Origin: Bacillota bacterium
GTDB lineage: Bacteria > Bacillota > Bacilli > Alicyclobacillales > SLC66
Direction of reading: 5' to 3'
Length of the DNA: 61,189 nucleotides
Assembly: GCA_026627345.1 (NCBI GenBank)
Contig: JAPNUP010000179.1
Location: 1 to 61,189, forward strand
This document shows positions 25,317-61,189 of this stretch, in pieces. The translations under genes and the position numbers were made by a program. The notes below the pieces were generated by a model. The model had not been told where the DNA came from, did no database searches, and was given only the letters and a program-made list of their open reading frames with translations. Numbering within the stretch: the first letter of the stretch is position 1; every line of letters starts with the position of its first letter.

Positions 25317-25452
25317 TTTCTCCTTCAGGGCAGGGTGAGGCCGCATGGCCAATTCCCGATCGGTGGTGACGCGCAGCGCGCCAAGTCCACGAGCAATTGC
25401 ATGAACTGGTGAAAATCCAGTACCGACGGTATAGTCCGGATGAAAGAGGGAG
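25317..25452 (+). promoter_or_regulatory. FMN riboswitch (RFN element) of the rib operon
   Basis: Conserved RFN blocks appear in order: CAGGGCAGGGTGAG (25326-25339), AATTCCCGATCGGTGG (25351-25366), AAGTCCACGAGC (25383-25394), TGGTGAAAATCCAGTACCGA (25408-25427) and CGGTATAGTCCGGATGAAAG (25427-25446). It binds FMN and is placed directly before ribD with a terminator between, so high FMN should stop transcription of ribDE-BA-H. The whole 25216-25571 gap is explained by this element and the flanking terminators. Confidence 0.95.
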
Positions 25453-25514
25453 GCAAGAACCACAGCAGGTGTCAGATCGGAGTCTGACGACCTTGGTTTT
25501 TGCTTGCTTATTTC

Positions 25515-41824: not shown

Positions 41825-41880
41825 TAGTTCCAAGGAATATTTTTGTATAATTGATATTATCCTATTGCATAATCCATAGA

Positions 41881-41911
41881 AACGGAGGGTGCGTATTTCG
41901 CACCCTCCGTT
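41881..41911 (-). terminator. hairpin terminator downstream of serA
   Basis: Perfect 13-bp inverted repeat (41881-41893 and 41899-41911) with a 5-nt loop and a short T stretch on the minus-strand side. It lies about 120 bp beyond the serA stop, after the repeat cluster. Confidence 0.65.
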
Positions 41912-41930
41912 TAGCTGCATATTTGGATTC

Positions 41931-42026
41931 AGCACCATGTCACCGTCTGTCTCGGAATAACGGCGTTAGCCGCTTATTCTTCCCGTAGACGGTGGTGCGA
42001 GAGCACCATGTCACCGTCTGTCTCGG
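41931..42026. repeat. 25-bp direct repeats flanking a palindromic core
   Basis: An identical 25-bp sequence beginning AGCACCATGTCACCG is at 41931-41955 and 42002-42026, so the period is 71 bp. Between them is the palindromic core. The second copy stops 5 bp before the serA stop codon. This looks like 1.4 copies of a 71-bp unit. Confidence 0.85.
41956..42006 (-). repeat. dispersed palindromic repeat, copy A
   Basis: Reverse-complemented, this 51-bp stretch matches 60967-61016 with two substitutions and one single-base gap. It contains the imperfect palindrome GAATAAGCGGC/GCCGTTATTC. A weaker relative lies at 19272-19319. Confidence 0.85.
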
Positions 42027-42031
42027 GATCG

Positions 42032-43624
42032 TCAGGCAAGAGGCAACTCGATATAGGTGACGCGGTCCATGTCCATGGCATCGCGTATCGCTTGCACGCT
42101 GTCTTCAGCTACAGGACGATCGACCGCCATTAACATGATCGCTTGTCCACCTTCCTCGAGCCGACCGACCTGCATAGAAGCGATGTTAATCCCGGCTAGC
42201 CCGAGCACGCTCCCAACACGGCCGATGATCCCCGGACGATCTCGGTGCCAAGTCATCAGCATGGTCGCGGTTGGAGCCACATCGACCGGGTAGCCGTTAA
42301 TCTCTTCGATGCGCATACCATGCCCTTTTAGCACCGTGCCGGCAACCGTGACATCACCAGTCTTACCTTTGAGCGTCACGCGCATTGCCGAGGGATGAGA
42401 TGTGCTTTGGGATTTGCTTTCTGTAATATCTACACCAAGTTCGTCTGCAACGAGACGAGCGCTTAGGATGTTCACTTCTTCGGTATGGAAATGCGACAAC
42501 AGACCTTTGAGGGCGGACCTCGTCATCGGATCTAACGTGTGCACAGCAATTTCACCTTCGTAATGCATGTGCGCTTGAACAATACTGTCACCTGGCACTA
42601 GTTGCGCGGCGAAAGAGCCTAGCACCTCTGCGAGTTCCACGAAGGGGGCGAGGGCTTGTTGCGTCTCCGCAGGTAAAGGTGGGAGGTTGACGGTATGCGG
42701 ATAGCTCCCACCGCGTAGTAACTTGACCACACCGTCCGCCACGTCGATCGCGACATTGACCTGCGCCTCTTCAGTTGAGGCGCCAAGGTGGGGAGTGGCA
42801 ATCACCTGATCGTAGGACAACAGTGGGTTGCCGACAGCAGGTTCCTCTTCAAAGACGTCGAGCGCCACTCCACTCACAATGCCTGCATCGAGCGCACGGA
42901 TTAATGCGGCCTCATCGATAATGCCACCCCGAGCGCAGTTAAGCAGACGCACACCTGGTTTCATCAAGGCAAATTCCTTGTCGCTGATGAGATGGCGCGT
43001 CTCTTTGGTCAGGGGAGTGTGCACAGTAATAAAATCGGCGACTGAAATGGTCTCCTGTAAGGTTGCAGCTTTTAAACCCAGCTTATCAGCGCGCGCAGGC
43101 GTCAAGAAAGGGTCGAATGCGACGACATCCATGCCGAATGCTTGAGCTCGTTTGGCGACTTGCGCACCGATGCGGCCTAATCCCACGACACCGATCGTCT
43201 TGCCGCGTAACTCGACGCCTTGAAAGCGACTGCGCTCCCAACGTCCTTCATGAAGGGAGAGGTGGGCTTGCGCAATGTTTCTCGCCAAAGCAAGCATCAT
43301 GGCAAATGTAAACTCTGCCGTCGTGATCGTGTTGCCGTCTGGCGCATTGATCACTAGAACGCCTGCCTTCGTAGCTGCGCGCACATCGATGTTATCGACG
43401 CCGACGCCGGCACGGCCCACAACTTGTAGCCGTTTGCCTGCTTGTAGGATCGCTGGCGTGACTTTCGTTTGACTGCGGACCAGCAATGCGTCGAAATCGG
43501 CGATGACGGCGCAAATCTCATCTTCGGTGGCCCCTATGTGCTGAACCACTTCCATGTCTGTGGCTTCCAAGAGCTTCTGCAACCCAAGTTCCGATAGTGG
43601 GTCGGTGACCAAGATGCGATGCAT
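42032..43624 (-). CDS. serA: D-3-phosphoglycerate dehydrogenase
   Basis: A 530-residue full-length SerA: NAD-binding dehydrogenase domain (VGLGRIGAQVAKRAQAFGMD), catalytic Arg, Glu and His in NCARGGIIDEAAL and TPHLGASTEEAQ, an intervening domain, and a C-terminal ACT domain (MLMTWHRDRPGIIGRVGSVL). It makes 3-phosphohydroxypyruvate, the first step of serine synthesis. The ATG at 43624 has GGAGGAGG 7 bp upstream. A T-box leader precedes it. The B. subtilis resDE-serA neighbourhood is partly kept. Confidence 0.94.
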   Translation of the reverse strand: MHRILVTDPLSELGLQKLLEATDMEVVQHIGATEDEICAVIADFDALLVRSQTKVTPAILQAGKRLQVVGRAGVGVDNIDVRAATKAGVLVINAPDGNTITTAEFTFAMMLALARNIAQAHLSLHEGRWERSRFQGVELRGKTIGVVGLGRIGAQVAKRAQAFGMDVVAFDPFLTPARADKLGLKAATLQETISVADFITVHTPLTKETRHLISDKEFALMKPGVRLLNCARGGIIDEAALIRALDAGIVSGVALDVFEEEPAVGNPLLSYDQVIATPHLGASTEEAQVNVAIDVADGVVKLLRGGSYPHTVNLPPLPAETQQALAPFVELAEVLGSFAAQLVPGDSIVQAHMHYEGEIAVHTLDPMTRSALKGLLSHFHTEEVNILSARLVADELGVDITESKSQSTSHPSAMRVTLKGKTGDVTVAGTVLKGHGMRIEEINGYPVDVAPTATMLMTWHRDRPGIIGRVGSVLGLAGINIASMQVGRLEEGGQAIMLMAVDRPVAEDSVQAIRDAMDMDRVTYIELPLA

Positions 43625-43738
43625 GTGTGTGCCTCCTCCTCTTATATATCCCTGTCTCACCGATTCGTCGAGTCGCAAGCAGTGAAGCGAGCTGCCCATA
43701 AATAAACAGACGTCGCCCGTCTGCAGTGCGAACTCTGC

Positions 43739-60498: not shown

Positions 60499-60999
60499 GT
60501 GAACGCGACGCCGTCTGTGCCAGAGACCGACGAGGCTTTGACAGCCTTGGCGCGTACCCTGTCTCGCCACGCTTTTGGACGCGCGTTTGACCACGCCTGC
60601 CGATATAACACACGGTTGCGGGCCGTTGCTGGGCGCTATCTGCTGGCGACACACGACATCGAGATCAGTGTCACGCACGTAAAGCGCTACGGCTTTGACG
60701 AGTTGAAAGGGACCCTTTTGCACGAACTCTGTCATTATCATCTTCATCTTTTAGGACGTGGGTACAGACATCGTGACCAGGACTTTAAGCAACTCCTCAA
60801 GGCGGTAGGGGGATCGCGTTATGCGAAACCGGGTACCCAAGCTGTATATCGTTATGTATACTGTTGTACAAGCTGTGCTAGGCGGTACGAGCGGCGGCGC
60901 AAGATCGATACGAAACGATACGTCTGCGGACATTGCCGCGGTATTTTACAGTTAGACGCTGACCTAGTGCTCTCGCACCAGCGTCCACGGGAAGAATAA
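60499..60999 (+). CDS. sprT: SprT-like zinc metalloprotein
   Basis: A 166-residue SprT family protein with the zinc site HELCHYHLH (His75, Glu76, His79) and a C-terminal zinc ribbon (CCTSCARRY, YVCGHCRG). Eukaryotic relatives (Spartan) cut DNA-protein crosslinks; the bacterial role is not settled. GTG start with GGGGGAGG upstream. The last ten codons and the stop lie in a copy of the dispersed repeat. Confidence 0.88.
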   Translation: MNATPSVPETDEALTALARTLSRHAFGRAFDHACRYNTRLRAVAGRYLLATHDIEISVTHVKRYGFDELKGTLLHELCHYHLHLLGRGYRHRDQDFKQLLKAVGGSRYAKPGTQAVYRYVYCCTSCARRYERRRKIDTKRYVCGHCRGILQLDADLVLSHQRPREE

Positions 61000-61016
61000 G
61001 CGGCTACGCCGTTATT
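60967..61016 (+). repeat. dispersed palindromic repeat, copy B, over the sprT 3' end
   Basis: A 50-bp stretch matching copy A (41956-42006, reverse strand) with two substitutions and a single-base gap. It encodes the final ten residues of SprT and its TAA stop, then continues as a palindrome (GAATAAGCGGC/GCCGTTATT) in the gap to the next gene, where it could work as a terminator-like hairpin. Confidence 0.85.
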
Positions 61017-61042
61017 GAGAATTTTCAAGGGAGGCACGGGTA

Positions 61043-61189
61043 ATGGATACCAACGTGGCACAAAGTATTAAGACGGCACTGGAATGGTTGCAAGACTGCT
61101 CGCGGGAGACAGCGGTGACAGTCGATGAAGGAGCATTAGAGTCACGGGTGATGGATTTGTTTCGAGCGGAAGACATGGATGGCATTGCG
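61043..61189 (+). CDS. unknown protein, N-terminal part only
   Basis: First 49 codons of a gene cut off by the window edge (MDTNVAQSIKTALEWLQDCS, then DLFRAEDMDGIA). GGGAGG lies 8 bp before the ATG. Not recognisable from this part. Confidence 0.6.
   Translation, partial: MDTNVAQSIKTALEWLQDCSRETAVTVDEGALESRVMDLFRAEDMDGIA

Follow-up and report, generated by a model that had tools for sequence, protein, structure and literature searches.

The window, i.e., the whole 61,189-nt stretch of DNA analysed here, holds two copies of a small two-hairpin repeat that is dispersed through its genome. The repeat is probably a non-autonomous, BOX-like mobile element that targets TAG-like sites; its sense copies in leaders would persist because they affect the transcript mildly or usefully. 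The placement of most copies just upstream of unrelated housekeeping genes and their shifts between close relatives suggest a small mobile leader element rather than a REP. "BOX-like small interspersed element" serves as a working name, chosen by likeness of description and with no claim of homology. Small bacterial repeats are usually seen as parasites tolerated at gene ends, whereas this one sits mostly at gene starts, in sense orientation; if it affects mRNA fate, it would provide a natural test of the speed at which 5' leaders are acquired and rewired. Additionally, its ends, together with the lack of a linked transposase, pose a clean question on the mode of copying.

Structure and distribution of the repeat

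An earlier note on this DNA had described segment 60967-61016 (+) as a near-identical, oppositely oriented copy of 41956-42006 (-). The match indeed covers the full 50 bp save for two substitutions and one 1-base indel, and a repeat finder places the two copies as 53-nt inverted arms (60954-61006/41967-42019) that are 91% complementary. The 50-bp limits were too narrow: with the covariance model R1, the full elements extend over about 60949-61021 and 41951-42024 (Table 1).

Table 1. Coordinates of the two element copies and of the adjacent genes in the window
Feature	Position	Strand	Basis or remark
sprT	60499..60999	+	ORF; residues from about 152 on element-encoded
Element copy 1, full unit	60949..61021	+	R1 match 82.7 bits, model span
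Hairpin H1, copy 1	60954..60986	+	Fold, sequence, pairing counts
Hairpin H2, copy 1	60994..61016	+	Stem, one bulged base; sequence, pairing counts
Gene downstream of copy 1, start only	61043..61189	+	ATG 61043, GGGAGG upstream; leaves window
Element copy 2, full unit, 3' of serA	41951..42024	-	R1 match 93 bits
Hairpin H1, copy 2	41986..42019	-	Sequence, fold
Hairpin H2, copy 2	41955..41979	-	Sequence, fold
Truncated second unit behind copy 2 (5' arm of H1 only)	41931..41954	-	Direct repeat, period 71
serA (D-3-phosphoglycerate dehydrogenase), upstream neighbour of copy 2	42032..43699	-	ORF, Pfam

The unit comprises about 69-73 nt, runs from TAG to GATAG and consists of two imperfect hairpins, each with its bulge on the 5' side; it has no coding capacity of its own. 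In an alignment of 31 good copies from the own genome (76 columns), the H1 consensus has an outer stem AGACGGT/ACCGTCT, a bulge of 5-6 nt on the 5' side, an inner stem GGTGC/GCACC and a four-base loop; in copy 1 of the window, the outer stem reads GACGCT/AGCGTC and the inner stem GTGC/GCAC, with the bulge likewise on the 5' side. H1 and H2 are joined by a linker that mostly reads CGGGAA, and H2 is made of GAATAA, one bulged base, CGGC, a small loop, GCCG and TTATTC. G014, which has the most uniform set of copies (five sampled copies have a mean identity of 0.89), shows the limits of the element clearly: its copies are conserved from TAGACGG to CTGGATAG. As TAGACGG at one end is not complementary to GGATAG at the other, the element is without terminal inverted repeats, and the TAG found at both ends fits either a target plus an element end or a 3-bp duplication.

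Compensatory changes preserve the pairing across genera. Among the 31 own-genome copies, 92.8% of cells are paired, nine pairs show changes on both sides, and cells with a double change number 26, against 7.8 in shuffles. In a cross-genus alignment, also of 31 sequences (own genome, G014, G001/G002, G010 and G011-G013), there are 54 such cells against 15.9 in shuffles; H2 is paired in 97.7% of its cells despite change at six of its ten pairs, and the H1 outer stem is largely lost in G011-G013. The balance of G.U and A.C mismatches (15 vs 20 in A1, 7 vs 28 in A4) is confounded by the loss of this stem in some genera and was not used as evidence for a folded strand.

The modules vary in number, occurring as single, double and triple units and also as lone halves. 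Tandem units are spaced 69-71 nt apart and have one TAG in common, and at L007, L017, L001 and L038 both tandem units carry the same locus-specific variants. Since tandem units, including the truncated unit behind copy 2, carry such common variants, arrays appear to grow in place.

A whole-genome search with the 50-bp unit, as the earlier note had proposed, returned many copies, in agreement with its suggestion of a dispersed palindromic family of this lineage. The own genome (2,757,036 bases in 186 contigs) contains 54 matches to the pattern GGGAAGAATAAGCGGCT with at most two mismatches, 27 on each strand, against none for the reversed control, 45 matches in a DNA search with the 41.9-kb copy as query and 86 matches to R1 at E<=1. 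The counter-case that the note itself had named, namely that only two copies exist and that both belong to longer homologous regions, is thus false for this unit. Within the family, matches occur in nine of 18 genomes (72 and 45 in the window's own genus; 18, 6, 1, 27, 74, 33 and 40 in further genera; the copies per genome include 45 in G014, 18 in G001 and 27 in G010), and the other nine are entirely without the element. The consensus differs lineage by lineage, with one variant per genus. Across the order, 11 of 59 genomes match the multi-genus model R2, among them two of the 41 genomes of the other family, with merely three and one weak matches. Among named records, the matches lie in six stretches, all from the MAG Bacillota bacterium CF.Solf.bin.4, and the element was not found in the viral contigs, plasmid records or phage records searched. 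In the open-access literature searched, the repeat was not found described by title or abstract start. Likewise, Rfam gave no match at the element in eight loci (E<=5) nor in the window at gathering scores, and identity with a known Rfam leader or riboswitch was rejected, as no family model matches it. The window carries an FMN riboswitch at 25317-25455 (+), at gathering score.

Placement relative to genes

Placement was counted for the best 63 of the 86 own-genome matches, the weaker 23 having been dropped beforehand, and the neighbours were classified with a small purpose-made gene caller trained on the codon usage of the window or of the G011-G013 loci. Relative to the element, the upstream and downstream neighbours are oriented (+,+) at 38 copies, (-,+) at 16, (-,-) at six and (+,-) at none, with three copies having no neighbour; the (+,+) class still includes the 41.9-kb copy, which is not a leader, since it lies 3' of serA and is separated from the next sense ORF by a terminator-like hairpin (~41880). 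This inverted repeat, AAACGGAGGGTGCG/CGCACCCTCCGTTT, occupies 41880-41912, with the element on one side and that minus-strand ORF on the other. A called downstream gene is present at 61 copies and is in sense orientation at 55 of them (52 of 58 by site, as the former figure counts tandem units separately); such a neighbour may still be separated from the element by a terminator. In the tandem-gene gaps of the own genome, 38 copies are sense and six antisense (p about 1e-6). About half of the sense copies (28 of 55) are no more than 30 nt away from the start codon, and their edge often adjoins the Shine-Dalgarno sequence. Correspondingly, none of 60 element copies falls into a convergent gap, compared with 28 of 182 control gaps from the same genome that are at least 40 nt long and element-free (Fisher p 0.0003).

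The bias recurs among relatives to different degrees. The 56 copies of G011-G013 include 31 sense and eight antisense copies in tandem-gene gaps, eight divergent and four convergent ones, with a called gene spanning the element in five of the 56 rows; the sites of G012 and G013 are partly orthologous, so that the significance of this sense excess is optimistic. G014 is less biased, its 33 copies being distributed as (+,+) 13, (-,+) seven, (-,-) five and (+,-) four. Insertion directed by the replication strand was considered as a cause of the sense bias, and the 14 divergent sites speak against it: orientation runs with the regional coding majority at seven and against it at seven, and the split by GC skew is also 7/7.

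Candidate sigma-70-like promoters are found upstream of 18 of 45 copies, against 10.3 in shuffles (shuffle maximum 20). The downstream genes include those for glutamate racemase (racE), dnaG, cysS, thrS, leuA (2-isopropylmalate synthase), a mreB-like gene, gyrB, mqo (malate:quinone oxidoreductase), selA, MsrA, ispG, NAD(P)H-hydrate dehydratase, a thiolase, a pyruvate carboxylase-like protein, LarE, GcvPA, endonuclease III, SpoIVA and a SpoVD-like protein. NCBIfam models were run on 50 of the 53 distinct downstream references (L022, L131 and L056 were left out), and a regulon defined by gene function was rejected, the genes having no common theme. For the gene that begins at 61043 in the window, a Pfam search with the partial product gave no match. 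The leuA leader (L133:1501-1856, minus strand) has a T-box at 1605-1856, behind it a weak element copy and then the start codon, and a c-di-AMP riboswitch lies farther upstream at the same locus.

These positions, 5' of the Shine-Dalgarno sequence and in sense orientation, together with the covarying hairpins and the empty convergent gaps, are also what could be expected from a host cis-regulatory leader RNA that is bound by a global RNA-binding protein, was copied to many genes and is kept by selection. We regard such a leader as unlikely, given that the positions of the element are not common to relatives, that the downstream genes are without common function, that half of the family genomes lack the element entirely and that antisense copies and copies 3' of genes occur. 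A further possibility, which appears distinctly doubtful to us, is that the mobile, covarying two-hairpin RNA module acts as a portable leader, inserted again and again, for the most part in sense orientation, into the stretch that separates a TAG-like site from the Shine-Dalgarno sequence of one or another unrelated housekeeping gene; one trans-acting factor could then govern a set of genes assembled anew in every species.

For the BOX-like mobile element that we prefer, placement would follow from copying and subsequent loss. A candidate enzyme reading the folded single strand would paste new copies 3' of a TAG-like site, and arrays would then grow in place by duplication of 69-70 bp. In mRNA, hairpins located just upstream of the Shine-Dalgarno sequence would mildly alter stability or translation, possibly by keeping RNase J away from the 5' end, an idea that draws on what is generally known of mRNA decay in Bacillota. 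Such an effect in sense orientation would be tolerated or useful, and copies elsewhere would be lost.

Element turnover and the search for a transposase

The earlier note had taken copies in unrelated contexts as a sign of mobility or conversion, and the species-specific placement of the dispersed family backs this reading. When the sprT loci of 15 other family genomes and the serA loci of 16 were searched, the element was found in none of them, only at the own two loci. Similarly, an all-against-all comparison of the neighbours of the 63 own copies with those of the fetched G014 copies yielded few similar pairs, namely C69/L142 (on one side), C71/L164 and C146/L138, the last of which may be paralogues. 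In the divergent gap C128/L181, the own genome and G011 both carry the element, each with the variant of its lineage.

Gain and loss of the element between congeners, partly as tandem change, is seen at four sites that differ in element presence between close relatives. At L186/L116, where G012 and G013 are 96% identical, a 69-nt unit directly after GGGATAG is present in just one of them, and the same stretch also shows the reverse presence and absence, with a remnant retained in G012. At the L187 and L115 sites, the unit occurs in G012 and G013 and is absent from G011. The L188 site carries one partial and one full unit in G012, one unit in G011 and none in G013; this difference is more likely due to deletion in G013, given the unit that is still present in G011. 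With the exception of this deletion site, the empty sites carry an element-like module end (...TTTTCGGGATAG), and no clean insertion into a naive site was seen among the compared sites. As the element adjoins an existing module end at these sites, gain and loss in tandem explains part of the turnover. A second dispersed module of G011-G013, a hairpin of ~85-98 nt (e.g., L115:1376-1473 and L187:1386-1470), is usually fused directly to the element via ...TTTTCGGGATAG; the apex of this palindromic module is conserved and its arms vary yet stay complementary, with 18 or more of the 26 arm bases complementary in each of the 18 copies found and 13 distinct arms among them. Additionally, L005 and L010 (G000 C51 and C39) have a stretch of ~0.87 kb in common that is 98% identical and loses its similarity where an element copy ends, a boundary as expected for rearrangement through the repeat.

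REPs and REPINs resemble the element in being dispersed palindromes with bulged stems that are often clustered, according to PMC3733652, PMC8266576 and PMC3116915. A REP/REPIN-type element moved in trans by an HUH tyrosine transposase (RAYT or IS200/IS605 TnpA) would, moreover, agree with the TAG at both ends, with tandem arrays around a common TAG and with elements that start right behind TAG stop codons. We nevertheless consider this origin improbable. The tyrosine-type REP transposase that the earlier note had advised looking for did not turn up: the own genome encodes a single Y1_Tnp, an IS605-type TnpA of 142 aa, divergent from an adjacent TnpB-like gene at L079 (G000 C115), in an element whose ends, compared by eye, are unlike the repeat. 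Y1_Tnp was not found in the carrier genomes G014, G001 and G010 (G014 being 88% and G010 81% complete), and G015-G017 have several Y1_Tnp and zero element copies; a REP-RAYT pair is therefore not supported. Neither did the all-against-all neighbour comparison reveal a recurrent transposase-like neighbour that could be an autonomous parent adjoining the copies. The orientation of the element is independent of the replichore, and its 5' placement is opposite to that of REPs, which PMC3733652 describes as lying mostly downstream of coding regions and bearing a GTAG or CGTC tag. No such tag is conserved here, a reverse-strand GTAG occurring at the foot of H1 in 12 of 31 own copies and being mostly GCAG in G014; the unit also differs from a REP in consisting of two different hairpins and in forming direct tandems. 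Membership among REPs with a RAYT was thus rejected on tag, linked transposase and downstream placement. That the repeat is a family of intrinsic terminators or attenuators which ordinary recombination has duplicated is very improbable: the G+C-rich hairpins and the tandem duplication in place would suit it, but H2 has no T-run behind it, copies are not enriched 3' of genes, and many of them are at most 30 nt from the start codons of essential genes.

Of the "REP/MITE-like" label proposed in the earlier note, the dispersed palindrome of this lineage stands, the REP part fails on placement, ends and linked Y1, and the MITE part fails on terminal inverted repeats. Similar to MITEs such as RUP, bcr1 and NEMIS (PMC3733652), the element is non-autonomous, short, intergenic and presumably moved in trans; unlike them, it is without terminal inverted repeats, and a parent insertion sequence was not found in the own-genome and G014 neighbour search. 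The closest likeness in description is to the BOX elements of Streptococcus pneumoniae as presented in PMC3049150: both are short, structured, non-coding and modular, vary in tandem number, are dispersed in a Gram-positive chromosome and have no link to gene function, and BOX copies can alter genes and adjoin T-boxes. According to the same paper, the gaps between convergent genes hold an excess of pneumococcal BOX, RUP and SPRITE, these repeats are regarded as parasites, and BOX has terminal inverted repeats and target duplications (PMC3049150); the present element, in contrast, avoids convergent gaps in the own genome and has no terminal inverted repeat.

Gene ends and repeat-encoded C-termini

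The sprT gene of the window was identified by the Pfam models SprT-like and Zn_ribbon_SprT, which match up to residue 151, just ahead of the element. As the earlier note had stated, the repeat encodes the end of SprT: ten residues come from 60967-61016, and the stop codon TAA at 60997-60999 is the first TAA of H2. The whole element, from 60953 on, supplies about 15 C-terminal residues. Conservation among SprT relatives reaches as far as the zinc ribbon and gives way to variation beyond it, so that the element-encoded tail replaces a variable end. The gene ends with which the note had associated the repeat are not its typical site, which is upstream of a sense gene and often directly 5' of the Shine-Dalgarno sequence; just three of the 63 own copies, that of SprT included, contribute C-terminal codons to the upstream gene, in each case in a frame that reaches the TAA of H2, and the resulting tails are LDADLVLSHQRPREE (SprT), LDGDMALLRHRPREE and IDANVALSRQRPREE. 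Three unrelated proteins thus bear a repeat-encoded C-terminal tail, and these tails are a side effect of the element. Rickettsia palindromic elements occur inside genes and are read in frame into proteins, a likeness that extends here to these three copies, all of them C-terminal.

Among copies with a locatable left end, the left TAG of the element is the stop codon of the upstream gene in nine rows (TAA in one; one duplicated region is counted twice). Eight such upstream genes were scanned, and arsC, gpmI and pyrC could be named at the cut-off; their products reach the end of the family profiles, so that the stops are natural and the element lies right behind them.
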